Source of the DNA: Proteiniphilum sp. X52
Lineage (GTDB): Bacteria; Bacteroidota; Bacteroidia; Bacteroidales; Dysgonomonadaceae
NCBI RefSeq assembly: GCF_003712195.1
Contig: NZ_RDSD01000027.1
Coordinates: 1-55,652, forward strand
Length of the DNA stretch: 55,652 nucleotides
Direction: 5' to 3'
Shown here piece after piece: positions 15,105 to 33,168 of the stretch. The notes below the pieces were generated by a model. It did no database searches, was not told the DNA's origin, and worked only from the letters and a program-made list of their open reading frames with translations. Each line of letters starts with the position of its first letter. The stretch's first letter is position 1. Position numbers and translations under genes: made by a program.

Positions 15105-17723
15105 TCAATAATCATTCAATTTCTGTATAATTGAGTCTACAGCCGCGATCAACCCATCGGCGTTCTTGCCGCCCGCGGTAGCGAAATGGGGTTGTCCGCC
15201 TCCACCTCCCTGGATATGTCCGGCGGCTTCACGTATCATATTTGCGGCGTGCAACCCTCCGGCCACCAGGTCGTCTGTGAGCATGACGGTAAGGCTGGGC
15301 TTTCCACCTGTAGTCGTTCCAGCTACAAACATCATCTTCTCGGGGAATTGGCCTTTCAGTTGGTAAGCGATATCTTTCACCACGTCAACCGAACCCATCG
15401 GCATGATCACCTTAAAGAGGGTGACACCATTCACATCCTGTTTCTTCTCAATGATCCGCTGTTTCAACTGTTCGGTCTTTTCCCTCACATACTCCCGCAG
15501 CTCCCTCTCCTTCTCCTCATTGTCAGCAAGCAAACGCCGGATTCCCTGCATCACATCAGGCACATTATTGAACATACTCTTTATTTCGAGCAAGAGGTCC
15601 TCTTTGGCGTAGAGATACTCTTCGCACACCTTTGCCGTCACCGCTTCAATACGGCGCACACCGGCAGAAATAGCGCTTTCGGTAATAATACGGAACGTGC
15701 CGATACGTCCGGTAGAGGAGATATGGGTGCCACCGCACAATTCAATGGACGAACCGAAACGGACGGTACGCACGTCATCACCGTATTTCTCACCGAACAA
15801 GGCCATGGCTCCCCGGGCTTTTGCCTCTTCAATGGGTACATGGCGATGCTCTTCAATCGGATAATCGCTCCGTATCTTTGCCGTCACCCGTCTCTCCACT
15901 TCACGGATCTCTTCGGGAGTCATCTTCCCGAAGTGGGAGAAGTCGAATCGCAATAGTTCCGGAGACACATACGACCCTTTCTGTTCCACATGCGTGCCCA
16001 ACACCTCGCGAAGTGCCTCGTGCATCAGGTGGGTGGCAGTATGGTTACATTCGGTGGCCGTCCGCTTTTCCGTATCGATCCGGGCAGTAAAGGATCCTTC
16101 CATGTTTGCCGGTAATTTCCGGGTAAGATGCACTGCCAGGTTATTTTCCCGCTTGGTATCGAAAATATCGATCTTGTCGCCTTCCTCGGGAATCAGCCAG
16201 CCGGTATCTCCCACCTGTCCACCCATTTCGGCATAAAAGGGTGAGCGGGAAAGTACAATCTGAAAGAATTCCCTGTGCTTTTGTTTTACAGCACGATAAC
16301 GCAGTATACGGGTTTCGGTTTCGGTTTCGTCATATCCTGTAAACTCCGGTTCACCCTCACGTACTTTGGTCCAATCGCCGGTCTCTACCGCAGCGGCATC
16401 GCGGGCACGTTGTTTCTGTTTCTCCATTTCGGTATTGAAACCGCCCACGTCGACCCTCATTCCGTGTTCGCGCAGGATCAGTTCTGTCAAATCCAGCGGG
16501 AAACCAAAAGTGTCATAGAGCTGGAAAGCCACTTCGCCGCTTAACACCCCACCCTCCTGTTCGGGCAGGTTTTTCTCCAGGAGACGGATACCGGTCTCCA
16601 GCGTCCGCAGGAACGACTCTTCCTCCTCCTTTATTACCTTCTCAATAAGTATCTGTTGCGCCGCCAGCTCGGGATAAGCATCACCCATCACATCAATAAG
16701 CGTGGGGACCAGCCTGTGGATAAATGACTCATGCATTCCCAGGAAAGTGTAACCATAACGTACTGCCCGACGCAGGATACGACGGATCACATAACCCGCC
16801 TTGGCATTCGAGGGAAGTTGTCCGTCGGTAATGGAGAAAGCGATGGTACGCAGATGGTCGGCAACGACGCGCATTGCCACATCTCTCGCAGTATCTTCGC
16901 CATAAAGCGAGTCACTTATCTCTCCTATTTTCCGGATTATAGGTTGAAAAAGGTCGGTATCATAATTCGACAGTTTACCCTGTACAGCCATACAGAGCCG
17001 TTCAAATCCCATTCCGGTATCGATCACTTTAGCGGGCAGCGGCTCCAGTGAACCATCTGCCTTACGGTTATACTGCATAAACACCAGGTTCCATATCTCA
17101 ATTACCTGAGGATGGCCCTGATTCACGAGCGACAATCCATCTATTCTGACCCGATCCTCTTCGGGACGAATATCGATATGGATCTCGGAGCAAGGGCCAC
17201 AGGGGCCTGTGTCACCCATCTCCCAGAAATTATCGTGCTTGTTACCGTTAATAATCCGTTCTTTGGATAAATATTGTTCCCAATAGGCGGCGGCTTCATT
17301 GTCCCGATCCAGATTCTCCTCGGCTGCTCCTTCAAATACGGTAACGTACAACCGGTCTTTGGGTAGTTCCAACACTTCCGTCAGGTATTCCCATGCCCAG
17401 GCAATGGCCTCTTTCTTGAAGTAGTCGCCGAACGACCAGTTGCCCAGCATCTCGAACATGGTGTGATGGTAAGTATCGTGTCCCACCTCCTCGAGGTCGT
17501 TATGCTTGCCGCTCACCCGCAGGCATTTCTGGGAATCGGCCACACGAGGATACTTCACCGCGGCATTTCCCAGAATGATATCCTTGAACTGGTTCATACC
17601 GGCATTCGTAAACATCAATGTGGGGTCATCCTTTATCACCATCGGAGCCGAAGGTACGATACGATGTTCTTTTGACTGAAAGAAATCTTTAAACGACTGC
17701 CTAATCTCTTTGGAAGTGATCAT
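15105..17723 (-). CDS. alaS: Alanyl-tRNA synthetase
   Basis: The 872-residue enzyme charges tRNA-Ala. The class II catalytic core is at the N terminus ([36 protein letters not shown]). The editing domain shows [13 protein letters not shown] with its zinc partner CGGTH, and the C-terminal DHHA1/C-Ala domain ends with the glycine-rich [16 protein letters not shown] placed the start at ATG 17723 (MITSKEIRQ), which follows AAAGGAATTAT; an in-frame ATG 18 bases upstream would add six residues not typical of AlaS. The gene converges on the acyltransferase. Its leader holds a large palindrome that may serve in regulation. Confidence 0.96.
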
Positions 17724-17758
17724 ATAATTCCTTTTATGCATTCATTAAATATCCGTCA

Positions 17759-19353: not shown

Positions 19354-19764
19354 TTATAAACCTTCAGATTTATACCCACTATTAGGATAGTACTGATCTA
19401 TATATTCCTGACCGCGCTCACTTGCATTTTTTTCAGAAGGTATCTCATAATAATCCACATCAGGATTTAAACGTCCGTACAAACTTCCACCCCCAGCATA
19501 TAAACCATATCTAATTGTCCCCATTTCTTCCTGTTGCAGAAAATGTCCATATTCATGAATCATCCTACCTATATCAAAATTGCTTGATGGATTATCACCG
19601 ACACATATGCCATTAAATTGATAAGCACTTCCATCGGGAGCAGAACAATTAGAGCAAGTTACTCCATAGAATACGACAGGTTCACCTCCATTGTCTGGCT
19701 GATAAACGGTTAATTTTGCAGTGCCAAGTCCTGTTCCATTTCCATGGAGGTCCGTACAGCGTAT
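19354..19764 (-). pseudogene. C-terminal fragment of an Rhs-type protein with HEYGH metallopeptidase motif
   Basis: The frame is open from 19764 to the stop at 19354 (137 codons including the stop) but is closed upstream by a stop at 19765-19767 and has no start except internal ATGs. It reads DLHGNGTGLGTAKL, later IGRMIHEYGHFLQQ, then GGGSLYGRLNPDVDYYEI. HEYGH with trailing acidic, aromatic sequence is a zinc-metallopeptidase-like signature found at the C-terminal tips of some Rhs/YD-repeat proteins of Bacteroidota, which are polymorphic toxins. Only the tip remains; no Rhs core is nearby. An ATG at 19563 could give a 69-residue product lacking half the domain, so I treat it as a pseudogene. 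Confidence 0.5.
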
Positions 19765-19910
19765 TTATTTGGTGATCGGATATGTCGTCAGGAAAAATGG
19801 CGGCACATTAGTGTACCGCAATCAGGGTGAAAAATAAAATTTTCCATCTATGGGGTCATCATCAGGAAAGAAGTATATCATGGAACTATTAAAAGCGCGC
19901 ATGATTTTAC
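19765..19910. other. Junction sequence with possible IS relic
   Basis: The Rhs-type fragment ends abruptly here. At 19801-19822 an imperfect inverted repeat (GCGGCACA, TTAG, TGTACCGC; 7 of 8 paired) resembles an insertion-sequence end. No transposase coding was found. Confidence 0.25.
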
Positions 19911-19961: not shown

Positions 19962-20912
19962 TCACAGATAACCAATAATTTCATCCATCTGTAATGAGAT
20001 CTTTTTTAAATGATCCCTGTTTCCGCCGGGCACCTCTGCCGTAAGCCATCCACCTGTGTGACCGATCCTGCGCACAGCCTGCATCACCACCGGCCAGTTG
20101 TTATCTCCCTTCAGCAGATCGACTTTGAACCCTTCCCACAATCCTTTCGAATTCATCAGTTCACGGCTGAATTCCTTGACATGGAGCTTCATGATGCGTC
20201 GGTTCAATGTCTGGATCCAATGCTCTGGCCAACCGTATCGCAATACATTGCCGATATCGAAATACCAACCCACCAGGGGATGATTGATCTCATCCACATA
20301 ACGTTTGGCTTCCACCGGACTGAGAAGAAAATTATTCCACACATTCTCCAGGGCAATCTGCATCCCGGTCTCCTCAGCATAAGGTATCAGTTCACGGACA
20401 GCGTTTTGGGAGTTGACATATGCCTGTTCATACGACACCTTTTCGTTCACTACCCCCGGTACCACCAGCACGGTATCACCACCCAGCTCCTTTACTTCGC
20501 GCAGCGAAGCGGCTACCGACTCAATGCACTTCTTTCTCACCGCCGGATCGGGATCAGAAAGCGGTGAACTCCAGTGGTCCTTATTGACCACCGAGGGGAG
20601 CTCGATTCCCGACTTTTCTTTGGCCTCAAGGATTTCCGCTATGGGAAAATCTACCGGGCTGTTGAGTTCCACTCCATGAAAGCCCAGATCCTTGGCTAGT
20701 TTGAATTTGTCGGTCAACGACAAATCTTCATTGATCATGCCGAACCCTAAACTCTTTTTTAAAGTCACATCCCTTTCTTGCCCCACGGATTTGTCTTGCC
20801 CGACTGAAGCCGAGGCCGAAGAAGGGGTAAGAGCCGAAGAGAGGGGGGCAACTGCCGTGGCTCCTGCAATAACGGCAGCGGATTTGATAAATTCCCGTTT
20901 GTTCATATGCAT
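19962..20912 (-). CDS. Sugar phosphate isomerase/epimerase family protein, exported
   Basis: The 316-residue protein belongs to the xylose-isomerase-like TIM-barrel superfamily (AP endonuclease family 2). Recognisable blocks are GFHGVELNSP, ALENVWNNFLLSP, GWYFDIGNVLRYG and WLTAEVPGG, the last two holding metal-ligand candidates. An N-terminal Tat-like leader (NKREFIKSAAVIAGATAVAP) predicts export. A second ATG at 20906 would remove two residues and is equally good. It starts 2 bases after the stop of the Gfo/Idh gene, so the pair is one operon and probably acts on the same exported sugar or cyclitol. The reaction itself cannot be deduced. Confidence 0.8.
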   Translation of the reverse strand: MHMNKREFIKSAAVIAGATAVAPLSSALTPSSASASVGQDKSVGQERDVTLKKSLGFGMINEDLSLTDKFKLAKDLGFHGVELNSPVDFPIAEILEAKEKSGIELPSVVNKDHWSSPLSDPDPAVRKKCIESVAASLREVKELGGDTVLVVPGVVNEKVSYEQAYVNSQNAVRELIPYAEETGMQIALENVWNNFLLSPVEAKRYVDEINHPLVGWYFDIGNVLRYGWPEHWIQTLNRRIMKLHVKEFSRELMNSKGLWEGFKVDLLKGDNNWPVVMQAVRRIGHTGGWLTAEVPGGNRDHLKKISLQMDEIIGYL

Positions 20913-20914
20913 TA

Positions 20915-22237
20915 TTATTTGAATTCTGTGATACCGGGTATCGCTATCTCCACATCATACCGAGTTTCCCACGACAAGTCTGCCGGAAACAGGACTTCTT
21001 CTGAAGAGAGTGCCTGTTCCAGCGAAATGGTCTGGCCTGTATAACCCGCCATCCGTCCCGCCAAAGCGACCAGATTGGAACGTGTCATCCATTCTCCGTC
21101 GTTTATCGGCTTGTTATCACGGATAGATGCGAAAAGCTCATCATGCTCCTGCTGATACATGCTCCTGGTTTGCGATTTTTTATAGGCATTCTCATCTGTA
21201 AACTTCGTTTCATCATCATATTTCCAGGGTTTCTTACCGGTTATTTCATGTTTTCCGGTACGGCAATCCACCAGACACCGGCCTTCATCCCCGGCCAGTT
21301 CGACAGCATAAGAGGGGGCGGTGTTGTTTTGCTGACGGCAAAAGAAATAGGCTTTTACTCCTCCTTCATACTCGTACGTCAAGGCAAAATGATCGAACAC
21401 GTTCCCGTATTTGGGGTCTATTCGCTTTTGGCGTCCACCGCTACCTGTCACGCGCAAAGGAGTCACATCTCCCATTGCCCATTGAAGCATGTCCACACTA
21501 TGGATGGCCTGTTCAACAATATGGTCTCCGGAAAGCCAATTATAATAAAGCCAGTTACGCAGCTTATACTCCATGTCCGACCATCCCTTCCGGCGCTCCT
21601 TATACCATAGTTCACCCGTATTGTAAGTAGCTTCCGCAGTGAGTATTCCTCCGATTTGCCCGTTCAGCACTTTACCGAAGGTTTCTCTCTTGGGTAGATG
21701 GTAACGCCAGCAAAATCCGGAAACCAGCGACAACTGCTTTTCTTTTGCTTTTTGAGCGGCAGCCATTACCCTTCGCAGTCCGGGAGCATCCACGGCAAAA
21801 GGTTTCTCGCAGAAAACATGTTTCCCGGCATTTACCGCAGCTTCGAGATGATCAGGGCGAAAAGCGGTGGGAGCGGCCAGCAAGACCACATCGACATCGG
21901 ACTCGACAAGTCGTTGATAGGCATCGAGACCTACAAATTTATTCTTCTCCGTTACCTGTACCTTGCGAGGCTCCTTTTCTATTAATGTTTTTAAAGAGGC
22001 CTCCAGGTTATCGGCAAACGCGTCGGCCATTGCGGAGAGCACCACATTCTTATCGGCGTTTAGCGCTTCCTGAGCCGCGGCAGTTCCCCGGCCACCACAA
22101 CCTATCAATCCGACCTTCAACGTATTACTGTTGGATGTCCATGGCCTATTTGCCGCCCATGTCAAATGGGGAATAACGATGGAACCGGCGGTGGCAACTC
22201 CTGCCTTTTTAATAAATTCTCTTCTTGAATAGTGCAT
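20915..22237 (-). CDS. Gfo/Idh/MocA family oxidoreductase with Tat signal
   Basis: The 440-residue protein has an N-terminal Rossmann domain with GLIGCGGRGTAA and the family motif HVFCEKPFAVD (around residue 145), followed by the alpha/beta substrate domain with a GDHIVEQAIHSVDMLQW helix. These enzymes bind NAD(P) and oxidise or epimerise sugars and cyclitols; the GH109-type glycosidases are relatives that keep the cofactor bound. A twin-arginine leader (SRREFIKKAGVATAG) predicts export in folded form with its cofactor. It is the first gene of a two-gene operon with the isomerase-like protein and lies under one copy of the duplicated promoter-operator block. Confidence 0.88.
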   Translation of the reverse strand: MHYSRREFIKKAGVATAGSIVIPHLTWAANRPWTSNSNTLKVGLIGCGGRGTAAAQEALNADKNVVLSAMADAFADNLEASLKTLIEKEPRKVQVTEKNKFVGLDAYQRLVESDVDVVLLAAPTAFRPDHLEAAVNAGKHVFCEKPFAVDAPGLRRVMAAAQKAKEKQLSLVSGFCWRYHLPKRETFGKVLNGQIGGILTAEATYNTGELWYKERRKGWSDMEYKLRNWLYYNWLSGDHIVEQAIHSVDMLQWAMGDVTPLRVTGSGGRQKRIDPKYGNVFDHFALTYEYEGGVKAYFFCRQQNNTAPSYAVELAGDEGRCLVDCRTGKHEITGKKPWKYDDETKFTDENAYKKSQTRSMYQQEHDELFASIRDNKPINDGEWMTRSNLVALAGRMAGYTGQTISLEQALSSEEVLFPADLSWETRYDVEIAIPGITEFK

Positions 22238-22357
22238 AATGTTTATTTTTTATGTGAATGAGTAATTACTGGGATTCTGTTTTAAGTCGGGGAGCTTTAT
22301 TAACCTCTGTCCTGGATATAGGCAACTATTGCCTGTCATGCCTCCTTCTGGTATCTG

Positions 22358-22440
22358 CGTATTTTTATCGTCGCCTCTCACATCGAGAGCGATAAAGGTA
22401 AATTATTATGAATTACTAAACAAGAAAAAGGGATCTTTTC
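22358..22440 (-). promoter_or_regulatory. Promoter-operator block, copy A
   Basis: This 83-bp block aligns without gaps to 30727-30809 with 63 identical bases. Read on the minus strand it contains TTG (plus 22421-22423), a 20-base spacer and the -7-like TACCTTTA (22393-22400). The palindrome-like TAAATTATTATGAATTA (22399-22415) fills the spacer. A hairpin, CTCTC at 22375-22379 with GAGAG at 22385-22389, lies near the transcription start. It would drive the Gfo/Idh operon with a leader of about 150 bases. Confidence 0.6.
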
Positions 22441-22568
22441 GACAACCGCTATATTAAATTTGGTTAAAAGAAACAAACAAAATCAATGTCTCCAGAATGT
22501 TATCCCTCGGATCCATCCGGAATAACACTTTGGAGACACTTCTTAATATTTGAAGAAATCCCTATTGC
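22441..22568. other. Remainder of the gap between the SusCD and Gfo/Idh operons
   Basis: Together with copy A of the promoter block and the terminator at 22488-22537, this completes a 331-bp gene-free stretch. No further element was recognised. Confidence 0.4.
22488..22537 (-). terminator. Terminator of the minus-strand SusCD operon
   Basis: Three nested stems form one long hairpin: GTCTCCA/TGGAGAC (22488-22494, 22531-22537), TGTTAT/ATAACA (22498-22503, 22522-22527) and CGGAT/ATCCG (22508-22519). On the minus strand it is followed by a T-rich tract. It separates the SusCD operon from the promoter of the Gfo/Idh operon. Confidence 0.75.
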
Positions 22569-23612
22569 TTACCAGAATACAGCCTGGTCTTCATCCGGGA
22601 TCAATGTACTTACGTTACGCTGCATAAGCATGGTACCCTTACATCTATAAGGAAAATCAATATTCTCACTGGAGGCAGTGTCTTTATACCTATACTCCAT
22701 CGTCAATGTGAAGAAGCGTTTAATGATATGTGGACGGTCGATATCTAATTCTTCCTTGATCTCGTAAGTAGGCTCGCCTATAACCTCAAATTCCAAGGCA
22801 GGATTCTCGGCACTTAATACCAGCTTTCCCCTTTTCAGATAAAGAGGGGTCCCGTCCTCTGGGCGCGTATCCTCCATTTCAGACACTTCATCAGGCTCCA
22901 GAAATTCACACTTCACTTTAAAATCGCCCCTGTTTTCAGCCAACTCTTCGGTAATACCGGCATAAAAGAAAATGGTATTCTCATCCACCACCCTCGCCTC
23001 ACGGCTGCTGGCTGTCATATACTTGGTGGTATTGTCCCCAAAGTACACATACATACTCGCAGCATTATAAGTTCCGGAGTAATCGTTAAAGGGCATCACC
23101 CAGAGTAACGCTTTCTGCCTCCCTTTATAAGTATTCAGCGTGTAGGAAGGATCGGGCAAGACGGTCAACGGTAAAACCCATTTATCCACAAGATCCAGTC
23201 CTGAAAATTTAAAGTCAATGTCGAAGTGAGCCACATCGGTGCCGGCCGGAATATGGCAGGTCTGTGACGGAAATTCATAGAAGTTCGCAGGTAACTGCTT
23301 ATAATACAAATCGGTCCGTTCCGTATATTTATCAATATTCAAAAAATTCAATGTATCGTTATCCACATCAATACGGACAATATAATCGCGGTCATTGGTG
23401 CGTGATCCGCTTACAATCACCGGAAGTTTAAAAGTGACCTTTTCGTCATCGGGTTTATATCTCAAATAGATAACCGACACATCGTCTCTGTTGATGGGCG
23501 CCTTCAATGATATCATCCGGGTATATAGTTCACTTTCCCACTCATCATTACAACCGGAAAGAATAAAAAGTGTACCAATCAGTACAGTCAAATAAAAATA
23601 TAAATGTTTCAT
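22569..23612 (-). CDS. SusE/F-position lipoprotein, DUF1735/DUF4973-like
   Basis: The product (347 residues from ATG 23612) begins MKHLYFYLTVLIG and has a lipobox cysteine in LFILSGCNDEWES, so it should be anchored to the outer membrane. The N-terminal part (about 20-170) resembles the BT_3987-type DUF1735 fold. The C-terminal half resembles DUF4973, which ends in a short W/F motif (AVFW here). Proteins in this position next to SusD bind glycan at the cell surface. An upstream in-frame ATG at 23642 would add ten residues before the signal peptide and overlap susD, so I prefer 23612. It is the last gene of the operon, just before a strong terminator. Confidence 0.7.
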   Translation of the reverse strand: MKHLYFYLTVLIGTLFILSGCNDEWESELYTRMISLKAPINRDDVSVIYLRYKPDDEKVTFKLPVIVSGSRTNDRDYIVRIDVDNDTLNFLNIDKYTERTDLYYKQLPANFYEFPSQTCHIPAGTDVAHFDIDFKFSGLDLVDKWVLPLTVLPDPSYTLNTYKGRQKALLWVMPFNDYSGTYNAASMYVYFGDNTTKYMTASSREARVVDENTIFFYAGITEELAENRGDFKVKCEFLEPDEVSEMEDTRPEDGTPLYLKRGKLVLSAENPALEFEVIGEPTYEIKEELDIDRPHIIKRFFTLTMEYRYKDTASSENIDFPYRCKGTMLMQRNVSTLIPDEDQAVFW

Positions 23613-23634
23613 ACTATAATTTTTTATTGCTGAA

Positions 23635-25662
23635 TTAATCAAATGAAGGCCATCCGGGTGCCTGGGTCAGGCGGGCATTCCTTTTCAATTCTTCGTAAGC
23701 AACCGGCCAGAAATATTTTTTCATTGACCATGATGTTTGTACACTGGGTACCACTACTTGTTCATAGAAAAATTCCCGATATTCTTTCGGAACGGTGGTG
23801 TTACAGCCGTAAATCATCTGGCTCTCTTCCTCCGGCGCATCTTTCCAGCGGCGAAGGTCGTAATAGCGTTGGTTTTCTCCCAAAAATTCAATCTGGCGTT
23901 CACGTTTGATCTCTCTTCTCAACGCATCAGGATTATGATAAGGATCACCAATACCTATTTCATCGAAATTGGGTAATCCAGCCCGTAAACGTACGGGAAG
24001 AACGGCTGCCTTCATAGCCGCCACATCACGCGAGATAGCATGGGTTTCACTTCCATCCCATGACGCAATCTGATAAGTAGTTGTCAACTCGTTCAATGCT
24101 TCGGCATACATCAACAGAATATCGGCATAACGGATGGCAGGATCCACTTTAGGATATACGGTCCCGTCCTTGTAACTCTCTTTCGGGTTAACATACTTCA
24201 TCATGCCAATTCCTGTAGGAATCCAGCGGTCATCGGTACTTACAATTTTCCTTCCGTCATTTTCACCATAATAATAGAACGTCTGGAAATCACGATTGTT
24301 AGCATCCCTGGCACTGGTACATGCCCAATGGGCGCCGCTGAAAGCCACCGAAGCATAGAAACGGGGCTCCCGGTTGGCATATTCCAACCATACATCTTTT
24401 CTCAGATAAGGATACTCCCCGTCATATTGAGTAAATCCCTTCATACTGGTACTTCTGTCGAACAGCTTTCCGTCATTCATTGCATAAGCATCAGCTTGTT
24501 TACCGGTGATCCCGTGACAGTTCCATCCCCCCGCTTTGTCAACAGGCATCTGATGGCGCGACATGGAGGTGATTCCATATTCATCATTCAACTGGTTATC
24601 TCCACGGGAAAAAATCAATTCCGGATTTTCTGAAACGTAAAGATCCCCATTAAACAAGGCACGATAAGAATCCAACGGATCAATATCCTTCCATCCTCCT
24701 TCTTTCCATGTCTTCTCCGAATATACCGGGTGATAAGGCGGGTCTATAGTCTTGGGATAAGCTCCCCAAAGTCCTCCGGTGCTGCGTTTAGGAGCCACAT
24801 AAATCTCGTATTTGCCTAACTTTATCACATCCAGCGCTGCCGCTGCTGCTTTGGCCCATTTCTCCTCATCATAGTCCCGGGAAATAAGTTGTCTTCCCTG
24901 ATCGTCCAAAAAAGAGGCCATTTCCGGATTCCCGTTCATTAACGGGCTTGCTCCATAGAGATATGCCTTTGCACGCACTGCCAATGCAGCTCCTTTTGTC
25001 GGACGTGAAGCATCGCGAGTACTCCGGTTACTCTCTAACAGTTCTGCAGCCAAAAGCATCTGTTCGGAGATATATTCAACGCATTCATCGTATGTATTCC
25101 TTGGATAAGCCAAGTCAGAGTATGGCGCCTCATAATCAATCCCCTCATCGGGCAGGATGGGCACAGGACCATATTTCCTCAACAACAACCAATAGAGGTA
25201 ACCCCGGATGAAATAGGCTTGTCCCTTGAGATCCCTGTACATCTCCTCGGTAATTTCAGGTCCGGGATGGACATGTTGCAGAAAGATAGAAGCCTGACGG
25301 ATACCTTCATAGGATTGATCCCAGGGGCGGGAAACAAGTGCGCCGGCATTACCACCATACTGCGGGCCGTACTGACCGAATTTGTAGTTCGAGTATGATA
25401 TACCGGCACCTCCTTCGGTAAAAATCATGTCATCCGAGTAATTCGTAAGCGTAAACCGTACATGCCCTATTTCAAGATTAAAGGAAAGTAACTGATAGTA
25501 GGCATTGGCCAGCCACTGCTCGGCATAATCCCTGCTGTTGAATATGCGCTCCAGATCCTGCCTGTCATTAAAATATCGTTCTACATTCAGATAGTCGGAA
25601 CAGGACTGGAAAAATGTTCCCAGGCTGATTATAATGCTCAATAAAATATATTTTTTCTTCAT
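23635..25662 (-). CDS. SusD-like outer-membrane glycan-binding lipoprotein
   Basis: The 675-residue RagB/SusD family protein forms the lid of the SusC transporter. A lipoprotein signal ends at the cysteine in GTFFQSCSDYLN. The TPR-containing SusD fold is recognisable from LKGQAYFIRGYLYWLLLRKY (about 165-185), the RAKAYLYGASPLMN block and the C-terminal RLRAGLPNFDEI and REIKRERQIEFLGENQRYYDLRRW motifs. It is larger than the classical 551-residue SusD because of insertions in the middle. It lies 27 bases downstream of its SusC partner. Confidence 0.92.
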   Translation of the reverse strand: MKKKYILLSIIISLGTFFQSCSDYLNVERYFNDRQDLERIFNSRDYAEQWLANAYYQLLSFNLEIGHVRFTLTNYSDDMIFTEGGAGISYSNYKFGQYGPQYGGNAGALVSRPWDQSYEGIRQASIFLQHVHPGPEITEEMYRDLKGQAYFIRGYLYWLLLRKYGPVPILPDEGIDYEAPYSDLAYPRNTYDECVEYISEQMLLAAELLESNRSTRDASRPTKGAALAVRAKAYLYGASPLMNGNPEMASFLDDQGRQLISRDYDEEKWAKAAAAALDVIKLGKYEIYVAPKRSTGGLWGAYPKTIDPPYHPVYSEKTWKEGGWKDIDPLDSYRALFNGDLYVSENPELIFSRGDNQLNDEYGITSMSRHQMPVDKAGGWNCHGITGKQADAYAMNDGKLFDRSTSMKGFTQYDGEYPYLRKDVWLEYANREPRFYASVAFSGAHWACTSARDANNRDFQTFYYYGENDGRKIVSTDDRWIPTGIGMMKYVNPKESYKDGTVYPKVDPAIRYADILLMYAEALNELTTTYQIASWDGSETHAISRDVAAMKAAVLPVRLRAGLPNFDEIGIGDPYHNPDALRREIKRERQIEFLGENQRYYDLRRWKDAPEEESQMIYGCNTTVPKEYREFFYEQVVVPSVQTSWSMKKYFWPVAYEELKRNARLTQAPGWPSFD

Positions 25663-25689
25663 CTCATTAAATTTATTTGTTTTCTGATT

Positions 25690-28600
25690 TTAAATATTGA
25701 CAGTCAATCCAAACGTCACAGTTTTCCCCAACGGATATTTCATCCCGTTGGAACTGCCCATTTCCGGATCCCATAATTTGAATTTGGAGAATGTCAATAA
25801 ATTCTGACCTATAATATGCAACCGTAATTTTTCCAGACGCAACCTGGTGGTAAGCGCCTTTGGCAATGAATAACCCATTTCCAGCGTTTTCAGACGGAGG
25901 TAGGAACCATCGCGTAACCAATAAGTGGATGGGCGGTAATTGTTGGCGTTCCCGCCATAGCTCAATCGCGGGTATTCGGCATTCGGGTCTTCATTGACGC
26001 CCAAAATCCAGCGGTTGGCATTTGCCATCTCTTCTAGTATATTTCCCCATTCCCCGTTGACGAATGGGTATACAGTAAATCCATCGATAAAGAAATGGGA
26101 TTTTCCTGCACCCTGGAAATGGAGGTTAAAATCAAATCCTTTCCAGGTAGCTGACAAACCCAGGCCATAGATAAGATTCGGACGTGTTGTAGCTCCAATC
26201 GGCACAATATCATCATTATTAATGATTCCATCTCCATTTATATCTTTGTATTTGATATCACCCGGCATTACGTCCCTTTGATCACCGAAATCCTGACGGG
26301 GACTGTTCCGTATGTCTTCATAATCCTTGAAAAGACCCAATGCTACCAGACCTTTTGCCTGATCGACACGGAAACCGGTACGGCGCAGGTATGGATAACG
26401 GTTTACCATTTCATCTGCCTCGGTAATTTCATTTTTACTGTAGGTAAAGTTTCCACGTAACTGTAAAGCCACATCTCCTACCCTTTGATCCAATTTAAAG
26501 TTACCGTCAAACCCCTTTGTTTTGACACTTCCCACATTTGCCGAAGGGTTCTGACCCTGTATACCGACCATATCCGGCAAGAAATCTCTCCTCATATAGA
26601 TTCCTTCGCGCTTTTCATCAAAATAGTCCACTGTCAGACCAAATTTATCGCCCCATAGATACAGGTCTAACCCCAAATCATGTTTCTTGGCAATTTCCCA
26701 GGTTACATTATTGGAAGAGACACGCGTATAGGTCAGCCCGTCATATCCGAATGCGCTGTTCAGGTCGCCCCAGTTATAATATACCGGCTGATTTCCTGCG
26801 CCTGTATTGCGCTCGTAATTGCCGAAATCGGCCAGATAAGGAAAACGTGAAGAAGAGTTGTCTGTCCCTACTTCCCCGTATGAATAACGGATCTTAAACA
26901 TGCCCAACCAGTCAAGATTATCCTTTACAAAACTCTCTTCTGCTATGTTCCAGGCGGCTGAATAAGCGGGGAAGAAGCCAAATTGGTGTCCTTTGGCAAA
27001 GTTTTCCGAGCCGTTGTAACCAAAATTGAAATTGAGTAAATAACGATTCATATAACCGTAAGAGAAATTACCTGCCAATCCCTGATGGCGGCGGGCGATG
27101 CCTTGCATGATATCACTACCGATGCTGGAAGTATTTACATAATTATCTTGTGTATATTTGAGGACACTGCCAATGTTGTGATTCCCGAAAGCTCTCCCGT
27201 AGGAAAGTTCTGCTTCAAGAAATTCCTTTCTATCGCCTGACGCTGATGAGCCCTGGGACATTAAACGCTCCGGCACCAACCGGTTAAATACAATTTTCCC
27301 GTCCGAATCACGTTGACGTTCGGCTCTCCACATCTCCGGGTTTTTTCGTCGTTGTATATAATTGTAATTATACGTATCGTAGCCGAAACGCCCTGTAAAT
27401 TTCAACCCCTCGGTTATGAAATCCAGTTTTTGCTCTAAGGTGATATTGGAATTGATGGTATTTTCCCATATCTCGGAATATCCCGTTTGCGTAGCGGATG
27501 TCCATGGATTATATATAGCTTCCCACGATGATGTTATCGTACCTTCTCTCACCATGACAGGCACATACCCGTTCGAATACATCACCGGCATCGTAACAGG
27601 ATTATAGCCGAATACCGAATACCATATATCGTCAGTGTTGATCGCACCGGAACGATTCGCTTTTTCCAACGCTCCGCCGATACCTACCTGGACCAGGGTC
27701 GACTCCGTTATATTCATGTCCATATTCAGACGATAGTTATAACGCTGGTAATTGGCATTGGTATCATATTCTTTCATCGTTTTGTCCACATGATACATTC
27801 CTCCTTCATCAAGGAAGCTTCCGGATAGATAATACCGGGCTTTCGATCCTCCCCCTTTCACACTCACGGAAGTGCGGTACGTAGGAGCGCCGTCCTTTAA
27901 TAAAAGATCCATCCAGTCCACATTCGGATAAATATCAGGATCCAACTGTTCCTCGATCATCATTAACTCCTGATCGGAATAAACAGGCCTTTGATTGCGG
28001 GTAGTACGCGCCTCGTTCGCCATGGAAGCATACCTTAAACCATCCACGAATTTAGGTGTCCGGGTACGGGTGGTCCAGGTATATTCCGATTTGGCATTCA
28101 CTTCCACTTTTCCTTCACTCCCTCTTTTTGTGTTGATCAGTATAACCCCGTTCGCACCACGTGAACCGTAGATTGCTGTGGCTGAGGCATCCTTCAGTAC
28201 CGAGAAAGATTCGATATCTTCTATATTGAGTTCATCCATACTCCGTTCAAAACCGTCCACCAGGATCAAAGCGCTGGAACTGCCTCCGAATGTGGAAATT
28301 CCACGTATCCAGAATTCGGAAGTATTGTCTCCCGGCTGCCCTGAGCGCTGCATGGCCAGAACCCCGGCCACATTCCCGGCTAAAGCATTGGTAATGCTGG
28401 AAACCGGAGTCCTCAAAGTCCCCACCTCCACGGTGGTGATTGCTCCTGTTACGGTCACCTTCTTCTGCGGCCCCATGCCCGTAATGGTTACTTCATCAAG
28501 TATAGTAGATTTTGATTCCCGCATCGTGACATCCAGTATGAGATCTTCGTCCTTTACCAAATGTTCCTGGCTTTCGTAGCCAAGGTAAGAGAACACTAAA

Positions 28601-28812
28601 TATTGAAAGGATTCAAGCCTTATTTTGTATTTTCCGTCAATATCGGAAGCCACACCCAATCCTGGCTTATCCTTTACGGTAACGGTCGCGCCAATCAGCG
28701 GAAGACCTTCCGAGTCAACAATGGTGCCGGAAACCTCGACAGTCTTTGGTTGGGCAAATACGCCCATTGCATATATCATCAAGCATAAAACGGATAGGAT
28801 ATATTTCTTCAT
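25690..28812 (-). CDS. SusC-like TonB-dependent outer-membrane transporter
   Basis: The 1040-residue SusC/RagA protein imports oligosaccharides (or peptides) with TonB energy. A signal peptide (residues 1-20, AMGVFAQ) is followed by a carboxypeptidase-regulatory-like domain (about 25-110; GTIVDSEGLPLIGATV). The plug follows (TNALAGNVAGVLAMQRSGQPG, LILVDGFER, YGSRGANGVILINTKRG) with the 22-strand barrel after it. There is no sigma/anti-sigma N-terminal extension. It pairs with the SusD downstream and follows the TIG/NHL lipoprotein in the same direction, 27 bases away. Confidence 0.95.
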   Translation of the reverse strand: MKKYILSVLCLMIYAMGVFAQPKTVEVSGTIVDSEGLPLIGATVTVKDKPGLGVASDIDGKYKIRLESFQYLVFSYLGYESQEHLVKDEDLILDVTMRESKSTILDEVTITGMGPQKKVTVTGAITTVEVGTLRTPVSSITNALAGNVAGVLAMQRSGQPGDNTSEFWIRGISTFGGSSSALILVDGFERSMDELNIEDIESFSVLKDASATAIYGSRGANGVILINTKRGSEGKVEVNAKSEYTWTTRTRTPKFVDGLRYASMANEARTTRNQRPVYSDQELMMIEEQLDPDIYPNVDWMDLLLKDGAPTYRTSVSVKGGGSKARYYLSGSFLDEGGMYHVDKTMKEYDTNANYQRYNYRLNMDMNITESTLVQVGIGGALEKANRSGAINTDDIWYSVFGYNPVTMPVMYSNGYVPVMVREGTITSSWEAIYNPWTSATQTGYSEIWENTINSNITLEQKLDFITEGLKFTGRFGYDTYNYNYIQRRKNPEMWRAERQRDSDGKIVFNRLVPERLMSQGSSASGDRKEFLEAELSYGRAFGNHNIGSVLKYTQDNYVNTSSIGSDIMQGIARRHQGLAGNFSYGYMNRYLLNFNFGYNGSENFAKGHQFGFFPAYSAAWNIAEESFVKDNLDWLGMFKIRYSYGEVGTDNSSSRFPYLADFGNYERNTGAGNQPVYYNWGDLNSAFGYDGLTYTRVSSNNVTWEIAKKHDLGLDLYLWGDKFGLTVDYFDEKREGIYMRRDFLPDMVGIQGQNPSANVGSVKTKGFDGNFKLDQRVGDVALQLRGNFTYSKNEITEADEMVNRYPYLRRTGFRVDQAKGLVALGLFKDYEDIRNSPRQDFGDQRDVMPGDIKYKDINGDGIINNDDIVPIGATTRPNLIYGLGLSATWKGFDFNLHFQGAGKSHFFIDGFTVYPFVNGEWGNILEEMANANRWILGVNEDPNAEYPRLSYGGNANNYRPSTYWLRDGSYLRLKTLEMGYSLPKALTTRLRLEKLRLHIIGQNLLTFSKFKLWDPEMGSSNGMKYPLGKTVTFGLTVNI

Positions 28813-28838
28813 CTTGTTGTGTTTTTTATTCCTTTGAT

Positions 28839-30293
28839 TTATTCCACGGAAATGGTACGTATACGTTTGTTTTCACGGTCTGCCACATAGAAGACTTCTT
28901 CCTCCTCGTCATAACAGATGCCGGTAGGCTCCCTGAAACGGGCCGTTTCACGGGCTTCCCCGTCTATCCAGCCCCATACCTGACCGTCAATGCCCACACT
29001 ACCCCGTCCGGCAAATGTGCTGACTTCTCCCTCCGGGGTTACTTTGCGTATACAGTTATTATTGTGGTCACACACATAGAAGTCATATAGATCCGCCTTG
29101 CCTTGCGCCACATACTCTTTATTCTTCACAAATACCCCCTGACGCGGACGATTGAAACGGGCAGAGGTTCCCGGTGCATCAGCATATCCCGATCCTCCGC
29201 CTATATCTCCTACATGGAGTACAGATGAAACCAGTTCTTTCGTTGTTTTATCGTAAGCACACCTGTACACGCCGTTGAATCCGGTCATATATACATACAG
29301 ATCTTCCGGATGCCTGAACATAAACACATGGTCACTGGAATTGGCTTTCACGCTAAACAGCGCTTTTCCATCCCACATCTGGGCGGTTTCATCCCACACC
29401 TGCTTGGCCTTATAGACCTCCGAGGATGTCCATGTATTGTAAAAAATCGTACCGTCATGCATCGATACTGCAGAATAAGAGCATTGGGCATAGAGGTAAG
29501 GATATACCTTTCTGAAACTTTCGTTACGAAGGGCATAAAACATATTCGGCATCTGATGCCTGTCGTTCCAGTTCCCTCGCCCGTTGTCATCCACAAGGAA
29601 AAGGGTATCCCTCGTAGGCGTGTCGAACAACATCGATTTCACCTGATGGACACCTGCCTGTCCTTTCATAAACACGGTAGAAACTTCTCTTGCAGTCAGG
29701 TTGATCTTCCGTAGTGCCGCCAGATTTTCGGCATCAATACAATAAATAATCTTATTCCCTTCTTCGTCTATATCGAATTCCAGCCACCAGGGATTTTGAA
29801 ACTCAGCTTCCTCAAATGATCCGTTGATAATACTGGAAGCGTTGGTTTGCGGATCCACCTTACCGGTCAATGTATTTACCTGCAAAGCTGATTGAAGGGT
29901 AAAGAGTTCTTCAAACTGGTGTTCTTTTACAACTTTACCACCTTCATCCATAATCCGCACAATAACATCCCCCCTGTTGGAACGCCTTGGAGCCATCGCA
30001 CATATTTTCGTACCCGAAGAACCAATAACAGGAGCTGATACGCCTCCAATGATTACTTCTATTTTCGAAACATCTGTTCCGAAATTTGATCCTTCAATGA
30101 ATACTAAAGTACGCACAGGACCCTCTTTTGGGGAAAAATCGGTAAAAGTTACCGGCTTCGAAGGATCAGTAGGTATAACAGGCTTGGCACCCTGATACCC
30201 TCCATCCAGACTACAACTTGTAGCGGCAAGGGCTATCGCAAGTAAAATTGCAATAAATCCCCGCTGAGAATTTTTTTTGATTTCTTTTAGCAT
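28839..30293 (-). CDS. IPT/TIG and NHL-repeat surface lipoprotein
   Basis: The 484-residue product has a lipoprotein signal with cysteine in ALAATSCSLDGG. An IPT/TIG immunoglobulin-like domain (about 45-130; FTDFSPKEGPVRTLVFIEGSNFG) precedes a region with NHL-type beta-propeller repeats, best seen near the end (PEGEVSTFAGRGSVG, EPTGICYDEEEEVFYVADRENKRIR). Such lipoproteins often occupy the surface glycan-binding slot in SusCD operons. It is the first gene of this operon. Binding specificity is unknown and no glycosidase accompanies it. Confidence 0.8.
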   Translation of the reverse strand: MLKEIKKNSQRGFIAILLAIALAATSCSLDGGYQGAKPVIPTDPSKPVTFTDFSPKEGPVRTLVFIEGSNFGTDVSKIEVIIGGVSAPVIGSSGTKICAMAPRRSNRGDVIVRIMDEGGKVVKEHQFEELFTLQSALQVNTLTGKVDPQTNASSIINGSFEEAEFQNPWWLEFDIDEEGNKIIYCIDAENLAALRKINLTAREVSTVFMKGQAGVHQVKSMLFDTPTRDTLFLVDDNGRGNWNDRHQMPNMFYALRNESFRKVYPYLYAQCSYSAVSMHDGTIFYNTWTSSEVYKAKQVWDETAQMWDGKALFSVKANSSDHVFMFRHPEDLYVYMTGFNGVYRCAYDKTTKELVSSVLHVGDIGGGSGYADAPGTSARFNRPRQGVFVKNKEYVAQGKADLYDFYVCDHNNNCIRKVTPEGEVSTFAGRGSVGIDGQVWGWIDGEARETARFREPTGICYDEEEEVFYVADRENKRIRTISVE

Positions 30294-30520
30294 TTCTGGT
30301 TACAATTAGATTATTAAATATTTGAAAATAACACACTTAGATGTGTTAATATTTTTTAGCAACATATTCCTCGAAGTGGAACCCAAACAAACAGGCAAAA
30401 CATAAATTAGAGGGTTAATCAACGTTTAAAACAATGAGAGTCATCAATATAAAAAATCGGTTGATTAACAATCAATTAAATGGAATTGGATTGTATTTAA
30501 ACAATGCTATATAAAATCAT
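30294..30520. promoter_or_regulatory. Upstream region of the SusCD operon with inverted repeat
   Basis: TAACACA (30329-30335) and TGTGTTA (30342-30348) form a perfect 7-bp inverted repeat with a 6-base centre, 36 bases before the first gene of the minus-strand SusCD operon. I found no good TAnnTTTG box here on the minus strand. The repeat is an operator candidate only. Confidence 0.35.
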
Positions 30521-30706
30521 CTATATATCTGAATTTTTTGTATTATTCACCTCAATGCCTCCTCTCTGAATAGCAAGCCTTCTTATTCGCTCCGATAATT
30601 CACTCTGTGTGCGGTCTTTCAATGCATTCCGGACAGTTACCTCGCTAACATTAAGCATTTTAGCAATATCCCTCCGTTCTCCGTGTTTCATTAGTATCTC
30701 TCCCAT
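30521..30706 (-). CDS. 61-residue helix-turn-helix protein
   Basis: The product reads RDIAKMLNVSEVTVRNALKDRT at residues 12-33, a clear helix-turn-helix (DIAKMLNVS then TVRNAL) resembling Cro-like or LacI-type heads. A basic tail, ERIRRLAIQRGG, follows. With only 61 residues it has no effector domain. It is transcribed from copy B of the promoter-operator block, divergently from the S24-type repressor gene. A Cro-CI-like pair is a reasonable comparison, but the target sites are inferred. Its 3' end faces the SusCD operon. Confidence 0.7.
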   Translation of the reverse strand: MGEILMKHGERRDIAKMLNVSEVTVRNALKDRTQSELSERIRRLAIQRGGIEVNNTKNSDI

Positions 30707-30726
30707 ATACTTTTTCTTAAAACTTT

Positions 30727-30809
30727 TGTATCTTTATCGTCGCTTTCTAAATCGAAAGCTACAAAGATAAATCATTACGATTTATTAAACAAGGAAAACA
30801 TATCTTTTT
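30727..30809. promoter_or_regulatory. Promoter-operator block, copy B
   Basis: On the minus strand TTG (plus 30790-30792), a 20-base spacer and a perfect TATCTTTG (30762-30769) form the promoter of the 61-residue HTH gene. The palindrome TAAATCATTACGATTTA (30768-30784) occupies the spacer, and the hairpin GCTTTC/GAAAGC (30742-30747, 30754-30759) lies at the transcription start. On the plus strand a -7-like TATCTTTT at 30801-30808 could serve the S24 gene, so one operator could control both directions. The block aligns without gaps to 22358-22440. Confidence 0.65.
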
Positions 30810-30820
30810 GATTTATTTTT

Positions 30821-31558
30821 ATGTTAAATATTGCGAAAATACGAAAAGAATGGTTCATAAGGCAAATAGAAGGTCTAAAAGAGAGGGGCATTCCATACAA
30901 TGAAATAGCCAATTCTTTAGGAGTTAAACCTCAATATCTAAACCTGATAAAGAACTCGGAAAGGGGAGCCTCAGAAAAATTGACGCTTAAACTCTGCGAA
31001 ACATTCAATATAAATCATAATGATTTATTAGATCATATCCGATCATATGAAAAACAGAATCCGGAAGGATCTTCAGCAAATGAACCGACCACGGAAATAT
31101 CGCCTCAAAAAAAAATCCCACTGCAAGATAATGCTACCGGGGGTAGCAGAGGTATTACCACAAAGTGGTCCCACAACAGGGAAGATGGATGGATTGATAC
31201 CGGAGAATTGTTTCCGGAAGCCACATCAGCCATCCGTCACTATGGTGACAGCATGTCCGAATATCCATCCGGTTCTATCCTCATACTCAAAAGCGTAATC
31301 GATTTAGGGCTTATTGTATGGGGACGAAACTATTATGTGGAGACAAAAGAAATTGCAATTACAAAACGATTGCAGGATGGAGGTAAAGACCATATCATCG
31401 GCTACAGTTCGAACCTGAAAACATACCCGGACGGACGGCTTATACATGAACCCGTGAAAATCCCCAAGAAAGATATTCGCCACATCCACATTGTTCTGGG
31501 ATGTGTCACCAGGGAGTTTGGCGAAGGTGTGATTCCAACCGTTACCCCGGCTATTTAA
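30821..31558 (+). CDS. HTH repressor with S24 (LexA/CI-like) peptidase domain
   Basis: The 245-residue protein has an N-terminal XRE-like helix-turn-helix (about 25-50; YNEIANSLGVKPQYLNLIKN) and a Ser/Thr-rich linker. The C-terminal S24 domain shows the nucleophile in HYGDSMSEY (Ser144) and the lysine of the dyad in AITKRL (Lys182). The 38-residue spacing is close to LexA (Ser119, Lys156). Proteins of this type dimerise on operators and can cleave themselves when RecA filaments form. No phage structural or integrase gene is nearby, so it appears to act as a chromosomal regulator. Its most obvious target is the palindrome in the shared upstream region. Confidence 0.8.
   Translation: MLNIAKIRKEWFIRQIEGLKERGIPYNEIANSLGVKPQYLNLIKNSERGASEKLTLKLCETFNINHNDLLDHIRSYEKQNPEGSSANEPTTEISPQKKIPLQDNATGGSRGITTKWSHNREDGWIDTGELFPEATSAIRHYGDSMSEYPSGSILILKSVIDLGLIVWGRNYYVETKEIAITKRLQDGGKDHIIGYSSNLKTYPDGRLIHEPVKIPKKDIRHIHIVLGCVTREFGEGVIPTVTPAI
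31011..31027. promoter_or_regulatory. Operator-like palindrome inside the S24 gene
   Basis: TAAATCATAATGATTTA has perfect 8-bp arms around a single central base and differs by only two bases from the palindrome in copy B. It lies 190 bases into the S24 coding region. It may be an auxiliary operator for looping, or a coincidence of the codons for NINHNDLL. Confidence 0.4.
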
Positions 31559-31642
31559 AAAAGCTTCATCCAATTATCTCACTCACTATGACATAGACTA
31601 ACGTAAGCTACGAGTGAAAATGAATGTTGTATCGATAAAAAA

Positions 31643-31745: not shown

Positions 31746-32654
31746 ATGTCAATCATCACCATTACCAGTTGCCCTGTTTGCGGCGGTAACGATTTGAAAA
31801 AAACTTTTGACGGTGTCGATCACTTCTCAAGCGGAGAGGTGTTTCCCGTCTGTGATTGTGCCCGTTGTGGGTTTCGCTTCACCAATGATTTTCCTTCGGA
31901 AGATGCTATCGGGAGATATTATGACTCACCGGACTATATCTCCCACTCCGATTCAGACAAAGGGCTGATCAACCGGTTATATCACCACTTCCGGAAAAAG
32001 ATGCTGAGAAAAAAAGTGGGACTGGTAGCAGCTCATGCGACCCAGTCCCCCATCCGGTTACTGGATATCGGCTGCGGCACGGGTTATTTCCTGCAGGCGG
32101 CAAAGAAGCGGGGATGGGTTGTTTCAGGTATCGAGAAAGATAAAAAAGCCCGGGAAAGGGCCACCCTCCGCTCCGGCCTGTCGGTAAACGACGAGAATTT
32201 TTTTTGGGAGATAGGGAGCTCCTCATTCAATGTCGTAACGCTGTGGCACGTACTGGAACATCTGGAAAAGCTAAATGAAACTATCCACAAAATAACGGAG
32301 ATCACCACCCCGGAAGGAATTATCCTACTTGCACTCCCTAATTGCCACTCTCACGATGCCGGATTTTACAAAGAGCTGTGGGCTGCCTACGATATTCCAC
32401 GGCACCTCTGGCATTTCTCACCCGGCACCGTCGACAAACTACTTGCCAAACACCATCTGAAAATAATTAAGAGAATACGCATGCCTTTGGATGCCTTTTA
32501 TATCTCCCTGCTAAGTGAAAAATACAGGGGGAGCAACCGATTAACAGGATACGCCCGGGCATTCGGAGTGGGCACAATGGGCTTTATACGCTCCTTATCT
32601 GATCCGGAGCGAGCAAGTTCCATCATTTATATTGCCAAAAAAAACGGGAGATAA
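31746..32654 (+). CDS. Class I SAM-dependent methyltransferase with zinc-ribbon N terminus
   Basis: The 302-residue protein starts with a cysteine cluster (CPVCGG at 9-14 and CDCARCG at 36-42) that probably binds zinc. The SAM-binding motif LLDIGCGTGYF and the post-motif VVTLWHVLEHL follow. This architecture is common in methyltransferases acting on quinones, sugars or cell-envelope precursors (UbiG/COG2227-like). Substrate cannot be told. It stands in its own unit with a consensus promoter and is followed by merR on the same strand. Confidence 0.85.
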   Translation: MSIITITSCPVCGGNDLKKTFDGVDHFSSGEVFPVCDCARCGFRFTNDFPSEDAIGRYYDSPDYISHSDSDKGLINRLYHHFRKKMLRKKVGLVAAHATQSPIRLLDIGCGTGYFLQAAKKRGWVVSGIEKDKKARERATLRSGLSVNDENFFWEIGSSSFNVVTLWHVLEHLEKLNETIHKITEITTPEGIILLALPNCHSHDAGFYKELWAAYDIPRHLWHFSPGTVDKLLAKHHLKIIKRIRMPLDAFYISLLSEKYRGSNRLTGYARAFGVGTMGFIRSLSDPERASSIIYIAKKNGR

Positions 32655-32684
32655 ACAAAAATCAGGCGAATAATAGCGAAAAAC

Positions 32685-32715
32685 TTGCTCCTCCTGACGG
32701 AAAGTATTATTTTTG
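32685..32715 (+). promoter_or_regulatory. Promoter of the merR-like gene
   Basis: TTG at 32685-32687, a 20-base spacer and TATTTTTG at 32708-32715 fit the Bacteroidota promoter consensus. Confidence 0.65.
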
Positions 32716-32769
32716 AAATGAATAACATTTACACGGTCAATTATTCCAACCGACACCACTCACACAGAG

Positions 32770-33168
32770 ATGATCATGGGAAAAAGAAAGAAACCGATCC
32801 ATTTCGACGACAAGCGCCTCTTCTATTCCATTCAGGAGGTGGCTGACCATTTTGCGGTCAACGTGTCTCTTTTACGTTTCTGGGAAAAGGAGTTCGAGAA
32901 TATCAATCCCAAAAAAACGGCCGGAGGTACTCGCCAGTACACCCGGGAAGACATACAACAGTTGGAGATCGTGTACCATCTGGTAAAAGAGAAAGGGATG
33001 ACGTTGGAAGGCGCCCGCCAGACACTGAAATCCAAAAAAGATGAGGAGGAGAAACGGGTGGAAATTCTTTCCAGGCTTACAGAAATCAAAAAAGAACTGC
33101 TATCGCTGGAGACGGAATTCGACCGGCTCCATGAACAGCAGAAATACGCCAGAACAAAAACGGAATAA
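32770..33168 (+). CDS. MerR family transcriptional regulator
   Basis: The 132-residue protein carries a MerR-type winged helix at its N terminus (YSIQEVADHFAVNVSLLRFWEKEF, then GGTRQYTREDIQQLEIVYHLVKEKGMTL). A short coiled coil follows, without cysteines or an effector domain. Proteins of this length and type in Bacteroidota lack an obvious ligand. A second ATG at 32776 would remove two residues. The gene ends just before a repeat-filled gap. Confidence 0.88.
   Translation: MIMGKRKKPIHFDDKRLFYSIQEVADHFAVNVSLLRFWEKEFENINPKKTAGGTRQYTREDIQQLEIVYHLVKEKGMTLEGARQTLKSKKDEEEKRVEILSRLTEIKKELLSLETEFDRLHEQQKYARTKTE

Follow-up and report, generated by a model that had tools for sequence, protein, structure and literature searches.

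A block of 83 bp occurs twice in the 55,652-nucleotide stretch of Proteiniphilum sp. X52 DNA analyzed here (contig NZ_RDSD01000027.1; hereafter the window), once between the divergent genes of an S24-type, CI-like repressor and a small helix-turn-helix (HTH) protein and once some 8 kb away, upstream of a Gfo/Idh/MocA oxidoreductase gene. What does this block do, which of the two proteins recognizes it, and does one regulator govern both itself and the distant sugar genes, as a first-pass annotation of the sequence had proposed? The answer that we consider rather probable, from sequence comparison, is that a CI/Cro-type switch of phage-like character, today placed at the head of a SusCD cassette, has its control region in the copy between the regulator genes (block b) and regulates itself through one operator in the promoter and another inside the repressor gene, and that the second copy (block a) heads a neighboring cassette that has lost its SusC and SusD genes (SusC'D').

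Results

Two copies of one promoter block

The features that carry the argument are given below; G000 denotes the source genome (4.43 Mb), G001 a genome taken to be that of Proteiniphilum acetatigenes and G078 a member of another genus.

30727-30809, minus strand: block b, with promoter, operator-like site and dyad, in the gap between the small HTH and S24-type repressor genes; matches block a at 63/83 positions and has orthologues in G001, G038, G034, G016 and G078
22358-22440, minus strand: block a, the second copy, upstream of Gfo/Idh; in G001 this copy shares 85% identity with the block b query
30762-30792, minus strand: block b promoter, TTG-N20-TATCTTTG, 6/6 consensus letters (predicted start)
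22393-22423, minus strand: block a promoter, TTG-N20-TACCTTTA, 5/6 letters (predicted start)
30768-30784, strandless: O1, operator-like palindrome TAAATCATTACGATTTA in the block b spacer, one mismatch to TAAATCATNATGATTTA, aligned in 11 blocks
31011-31027, strandless: O2, palindrome TAAATCATAATGATTTA inside the repressor gene, the only site in the genome with no mismatch
22399-22415, strandless: O3, weaker palindrome in the block a spacer, two mismatches (one in G001)
30821-31558, plus strand: S24-type CI-like repressor, 245 aa (HTH_19/HTH_3 below the curated cut-off; phrog_4, E 3e-9)
30521-30706, minus strand: small HTH protein, 61 aa, in a Cro-like position (HTH-type Pfam below cut-off; phrog_16858, E 9e-10; family searches)

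The two blocks align without gaps at 63 of 83 positions, which reproduces the first-pass alignment, and elsewhere in the window neither block has an ungapped match better than 44/83. In the source genome a 100-bp query over block b matched its own position at E 1e-46 and block a at E 3e-12, the remaining 16 of 18 matches having E values of at least 0.03. Promoters of the Bacteroidota have a -33/-7 form with the consensus TTG-N19..21-TAnnTTTG, and block b fits this form at 6/6 letters and block a at 5/6. In the minus-strand sense, TTG at 30790-30792 is followed after a 20-nt spacer by TATCTTTG at 30762-30769 in block b, and TTG at 22421-22423 by TACCTTTA at 22393-22400, again after 20 nt, in block a. 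The spacer of each block holds a palindrome of the TAAATCATnATGATTTA type that extends into the -7 box, and a dyad comes next. The promoter-operator nature ascribed to the blocks is supported in both copies, as is the presence of the palindrome at each, with one mismatch at O1 and two at O3.

The repressor and small HTH genes diverge from a 114-bp gap that forms their shared control region. The block b promoter points toward the small HTH gene and then the genes of an NHL protein, SusC, SusD and a DUF4973 protein; that of block a points toward Gfo/Idh and then an epimerase-like gene. The blocks had been described as flanking the SusCD operon, and block b does adjoin it, but its promoter points toward these genes and perhaps drives them. 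Block b probably heads the small HTH gene together with SusCD, rather than SusCD being merely flanked.

A better palindrome inside the repressor gene

A search of the source genome with TAAATCATNATGATTTA at up to two mismatches returned nine places, against two matches per strand for a reversed control pattern. The sole exact place is O2; one mismatch is found at O1 and at a site inside a 510-aa open reading frame (ORF), and two mismatches at six places, O3 among them. Other than O1, two of the eight places fall less than 9 kb from O1. The locus contains in O1, O2 and O3 several operator-like sites of one sequence type, and the earlier proposal of a palindromic operator is supported for the two spacer copies, although a third and better copy, inside the repressor gene, had been missed.

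Across five divergent orthologues no 17-mer of the gene is better conserved than O2, with 15 of its 17 columns invariant; only the 17-mer shifted one base upstream equals it. Four codons within O2 (Ile-ATA, His-CAT, Asn67-AAT and Leu-TTA) are identical in 5/5 of these orthologues; the mean codon identity at the 103 invariant degenerate residues of the gene is 0.51. The distance from O1 to O2 is 243 bp in G000, G001, G038 and G034, 244 bp in G016 and 245 bp in G078.

Candidate intragenic operator copies in other Bacteroidales

Loci with a relative of the small HTH protein were collected with the single protein (threshold 1e-3), which reached 19 of 101 genomes of the family, and with an alignment (1e-6), which reached 28/393, 33/250 and 24/123 genomes of the order in overlapping sets. 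The resulting 105 loci gave 80 pairs of small HTH and divergent regulator, 25 being dropped for want of a divergent ORF, for shortness or for want of a small ORF (L128, dropped here, is the same place as L109 below). Judged by eye the 80 divergent ORFs are mostly CI/XRE-like; at least six (L126, L133, L154, L171, L177 and L185) were kept though their ORF or its start looks wrong. The pairs include near-duplicates (six orthologues of the window-type repressor gene, S24-1, and L078 with L090), and counts are therefore also given for 39 clusters. These were defined on the first 85 residues, clustering of whole proteins having merged 58 of the 80 pairs.

Each intergenic region was compared with the first 450 nt of its own regulator gene (ungapped, +1/-2) and with the regulators of other clusters. 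Scores of at least 15 were reached by 18 of the 80 own pairs (10/39 clusters) and by 14 of 6,072 swapped ones, and a best match of at least 12 lay at nt 115-215 of the own regulator gene in 26/80 (12/39 clusters), compared with 51/6,072 after swapping. For the 39 cluster representatives the mean best score was 11.26 against 9.17 in permuted pairs, the largest of 5000 permutations giving 9.91; the first-listed representatives alone include 9/39 with a score of at least 12 at nt 115-215. The matches fall on the regulator side, where 21/79 genes score at least 14 and 33/79 at least 12, the small-HTH side giving 0/79 and 4/79. Since the operator sequences differ between clusters, these copies do not descend from one inherited sequence.

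Beyond the 80 pairs, L109 has an exact copy of 21 bp (codon-shuffled control at most 12), and L044 and L110 score 17 and 13, each against 11 for the shuffled control. In viral contigs that carry a relative of the L129 regulator, L196 scores 14 (nt 154-173) and L198 16 (nt 154-172), and the best matches of L197 (9) and L199 (12) lie elsewhere in the regulator gene; the phage S24 genes of BS-TP3 (gp28) and of a Porphyromonas phage score 13 and 10, none of these viral and phage values having a control of its own.

The centre-to-centre distances between the operators span 165-245 bp. At 10.5 bp per turn the 12 cluster medians are in phase with R 0.62 (jitter p 0.007), and 10.5 was the best period for these medians in a scan from 7 to 16 bp; with the 20 distinct distances, 11.0 lies marginally above 10.5 (0.58 versus 0.57). 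This test was devised after the data had been seen and is only suggestive of looping; the spacing appears to follow the helical repeat.

We regard it as an evenly balanced proposition that CI/small-HTH repressors of the Bacteroidales commonly hold a second copy of their own operator within the gene segment with which the HTH domain ends, turned to the same side of the helix as the operator in the promoter, so that the gene would be both protein code and looping partner, with an operator specific to each family and some of the switches taken over for sugar-use cassettes. Several results pull the other way. The best match is not of the stated kind in 54/80 pairs and 27/39 clusters. The second S24-type regulator gene, S24-2, which is intact in G001, has no clear intragenic copy, L045 has none, and that of L046 only equals its shuffled control. 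The phase test, besides being post hoc, takes for inverted matches a distance that varies with where the script places the palindrome centre.

The dyad beyond the -7 box

30742-30759, minus strand: block b dyad GCTTTC-N6-GAAAGC, where the predicted small-HTH leader begins
22373-22390, minus strand: matching block a dyad

Differences between the stems that still pair had been taken as a sign of selected structure, and here covariation gives no support. Over 11 aligned relatives (10 distinct rows) the hairpin cells pair in 75.0%, only 1/6 stem pairs has both of its bases changed, and no whole-structure covariation measure stands out from shuffles. The folding z-scores of the leaders are good for block b (-3.6) and G034 (-5.5) and weak for block a (-1.6) and G078 (-0.7). 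A dyad of the form TTTC-N3..8-GAAA is present in 33 of the 80 intergenic regions, compared with 4.25 in shuffles (maximum 10) and 4.0 (maximum 10) in a repeat, at a median position 46 nt from the small-HTH start. Among the 39 representatives AT-rich dyads are equally frequent (AAAT 15, TATT 14, TTTT 14 and TTTC 14). Over the 80 regions, AAAT dyads are not in excess of shuffles (27 versus 26.6), TATT (20 versus 12.3) and TTTT (30 versus 20.0) are modestly so, and TTTC (33 versus 4.0), TTCA (26 versus 3.3) and CTTT (22 versus 3.0) strongly so.

A mirrored -7-like box, TATCTTTA, is found on the other strand at 30729-30736, one of six 5/6 boxes there. As the dyad lies between this box and the -7 box of the small HTH gene, it may serve as a further site for a protein or form a hairpin in the leader, and covariation does not decide which. 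The -7 boxes of the divergent genes (30729-30736 and 30762-30769) may face each other across the dyad, in which case the 5' ends of their transcripts may overlap; inspection by eye showed mirrored -7 boxes of a similar kind at other small-HTH loci. The single Rfam match in 22200-31600 is at chance level (E 0.5) and away from the blocks, and was discarded.

The repressor and the small HTH protein

The annotation of a divergent HTH pair is upheld by the match of the repressor to phrog_4, a family of transcriptional repressors, and by the HTH-type matches of the small protein; HTH-like segments are seen in both. The repressor is 98% identical to its counterpart at the P. acetatigenes DSM 18083 locus, and 16 aligned small HTH proteins are 33-74% identical to that of the window. 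Peptidase_S24 (Pfam) is matched by 4 of 11 aligned relatives, the window repressor having no match at 0.01, so that the S24 label draws on the relatives and the alignment. Ser144 and Lys182, which we take to be the catalytic Ser/Lys of S24 autoproteolytic repressors, are invariant in the 11 aligned sequences, and no conserved Ala-Gly-like cleavage site was apparent by eye in this alignment. A search of the PDB with the repressor profile gave seven matches, most of them HTH proteins and none named as an S24 peptidase.

A viral origin of S24-1 was considered and set aside: the viral scan found no close relative of it in viral contigs, and three phage records match the C-terminal part of the repressor alone, at no more than 40% coverage. 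The small-HTH relative of L129 had no match in phages or plasmids. Prophage context is absent among the neighbors examined (alaS, SusCD, methyltransferase, MerR and NamZ), part of the window genes having been classified.

History of the cassette region

The locus lies between alaS (15105-17741) and genes for a methyltransferase, a MerR regulator and NamZ. Its other genes are as follows.

28839-30293, minus strand: IPT/TIG-NHL protein; its gene probably comes next in the operon
25690-28812, minus strand: SusC (TIGR04056)
23635-25662, minus strand: SusD (PF07980)
22569-23642, minus strand: DUF4973/BT_3044-like protein
22238-22357, minus strand: Gfo/Idh leader with a SusD' 3'-end remnant (local alignment to the G038 SusD' 3' end)
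20915-22237, minus strand: Gfo/Idh/MocA oxidoreductase
19962-20912, minus strand: AP_endonuc_2 TIM-barrel sugar isomerase/epimerase

Between the small HTH and NHL genes there is also an inverted repeat, AACACA-N6-TGTGTT, at 30330-30347 with a plus-strand T-run after it, which is possibly a terminator or attenuator.

The block was matched in 7 of 39 genomes of the genus (E <= 1e-3), with two copies in G000 and G001 alone. The order S24 gene, block, small HTH gene is followed by NHL-SusC-SusD-DUF in G000, G001 and G038, by the gene of a 274-aa protein in G034, by a GH3-like gene in G016 and by SusC in G078. In G003 the block precedes another SusCD pair and in G004 an epimerase gene; neither genome has an S24 match at 1e-5. 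The palindromes of these blocks (L036 9880-9980 in G003, L035 9653-9712 in G004) fit 15/16 and 13/16 letters respectively, that of G004 being changed symmetrically (TAAATT..AATTTA).

In gapped local alignment the leader of Gfo/Idh matches the 3' end of G038 SusD' with a score of 38 in G000 (at most 23.5 in 200 shuffles) and 40 in G001 (at most 19.5, likewise of 200); by BLASTN the match is 78% over 64 bp in G001, with none for G000 or G004. The G038 SusD' gene is itself fragmented, and an unbroken SusC'-SusD' pair stands directly before the Gfo/Idh orthologue in G034 and G087. Because of this remnant and these intact relatives, block a probably stood at the head of a second cassette that lost SusC'D' there by deletion. 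In the SusC'D' stretches of G038 and of G034, whose contig begins 162 bp upstream of SusC', no palindrome was found at 13 or more of 16 letters; the stretch of G087 has one 13/16 site, inside the SusC' ORF.

At 19740-19837 (plus strand) lie 98 bp left over from the 3' part of another S24-type regulator gene, 96% identical to the intact S24-2 of G001, a gene that in P. acetatigenes is divergent from another SusC gene. From alaS to the methyltransferase/MerR genes (31746-33168), Proteiniphilum species carry differing SusCD, GH3 or Gfo/Idh cassettes, a cassette hot spot. With the SusD' and S24-2 remnants and these varied cassettes, the region looks like a site where S24-headed SusCD cassettes come and go. 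Elsewhere, in G074 (L077 1498-3159), a small HTH gene has a different, XRE-like divergent regulator and a SusC-like gene directly after it, a separate case of a switch of this kind being joined to SusC.

Discussion

In the arrangement that we propose, the repressor would bind O1 and block the promoter toward the small HTH gene and SusCD. O2 would be an auxiliary operator, which would probably loop with O1 or else block elongation within the repressor's own gene, and as an auxiliary site in that gene it would make the switch autoregulated. Deletion of SusC'D' would have brought the block a promoter and operator directly before the Gfo/Idh and epimerase genes, where the same repressor may still act. 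The first-pass annotation held that one regulator controls both itself and sugar genes 8 kb away; the O1 and O2 sequences speak for the self-control, and control of Gfo/Idh by the repressor is plausible only, in view of the two mismatches of O3 and the blocks of G003 and G004.

Some of our observations weigh against this scheme. Of the three sites O3 is the weakest, and a block with a palindrome persists in G003 and G004, two genomes with no S24 match at 1e-5. Between the small HTH and NHL genes no separate SusCD promoter is present at 6/6, but a 5/6 candidate at 30332-30362, before the NHL gene, equals the block a promoter in score and could drive SusCD separately; block b may therefore, but need not, drive the SusCD operon. 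The small HTH protein, too, could be the binder of the palindromes.

This last arrangement, in which the small HTH protein takes the palindromes and the repressor the TTTC-N-GAAA dyad, or the reverse, seems to us unlikely. Both proteins have HTH-like segments and the dyad is common (33/80 regions against about 4 in shuffles), but the extra palindrome recurs in the regulator gene and not on the small-HTH side, an argument tempered by the variability of the small HTH proteins themselves (33-74% identity). A purely protein-level or codon constraint at O2 would account for the I-N-H-N-D/E-L residues that are kept over O2 in six orthologues. It is nevertheless a very improbable explanation, as third positions are nearly all fixed there and far less so in the surroundings, and own pairs of the 39 representatives exceed swapped ones (11.26 versus 9.17, above the permutation maximum of 9.91).

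The alternative that deserves most attention concerns block a, which may be a decaying relic whose promoter may fire, whose palindrome is disused and whose Gfo/Idh genes lie outside the control of the switch. We hold this to be a real possibility, if somewhat short of an even one: O3 has two mismatches, the leader is a SusD' remnant and the G003 and G004 blocks persist with no S24 match at 1e-5, yet in P. acetatigenes O3 has only one mismatch, and in block a the TTG and the spacer length are kept along with five of the six -7 box letters. A dispersed or mobile repeat with no role in control is a most improbable account of the duplication. The block does occur as two copies at one locus, but the genome search for the block gave only these, in agreement with the earlier view, and in the relatives examined the block either heads a cassette near alaS or adjoins an S24 gene.

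The switch that we favor, with O2 inside the repressor gene, can be set beside several known systems. The OI site of gal, in galE, is an intragenic auxiliary operator in a target gene. The available text of PMC12849132 describes auxiliary operators in coding regions for lac (LacI) and for PhaR in phaP1/phaP3, thought to stabilize binding at the main operator; these lie in the target gene, whereas the window site is in the regulator's own gene. With lambda-type CI/Cro switches (telomere phage, HK022; PMC4488713 and PMC8053113, in the parts available) the locus shares a divergent repressor and small HTH protein with palindromic operators between them, and several of those likewise have a second operator region at a distance. 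Unlike them, no phage genes were recognized around the window copy, the probable target is the SusCD cassette, and the second operator falls where the repressor gene encodes the HTH, at distances of 165-245 bp over the set of loci compared. In mycobacteriophage BPs one operator of the repressor sits between the -10 and -35 elements of PR and another near the repressor gene; in the available account (PMC4557955) the latter is proximal to that gene, downstream of its promoter, with none in the HTH-coding segment. The hankyphage repressor RepCHP of Bacteroides, according to the portion available of PMC12135933, where its operators are not described, is CI-like and from the same bacterial order, but controls a phage, unlike the repressor of the window with its probable SusCD target.

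The non-canonical S24-family LexA proteins of the Bacteroidetes (PMC8565304, as far as its available text goes) resemble the repressor in a CI-type HTH, in an S24-type C terminus, assigned in the window protein through its relatives and the alignment, and in a palindromic operator in their own promoter, but that operator is CTAA-N5-TTAG or GGA-N5-TCC, unlike the palindrome of the window. The motif search described there spanned -250 to +2, so that intragenic sites fell outside its range. An intragenic operator in Bacteroidales repressors did not appear among the top matches listed in the open-access literature, which is weak evidence of novelty.

If our reading is correct, the operators of many uncharacterized Bacteroidales repressors would be readable from sequence, as a promoter palindrome that recurs at about nt 115-215 of the regulator gene, and short repression loops of about 165-245 bp would be expected. 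Synonymous recoding would offer a clean test of looping or road-blocking. To our knowledge, the known regulators of SusCD loci are of other classes; phage-like switches would then be found in control of SusCD loci.

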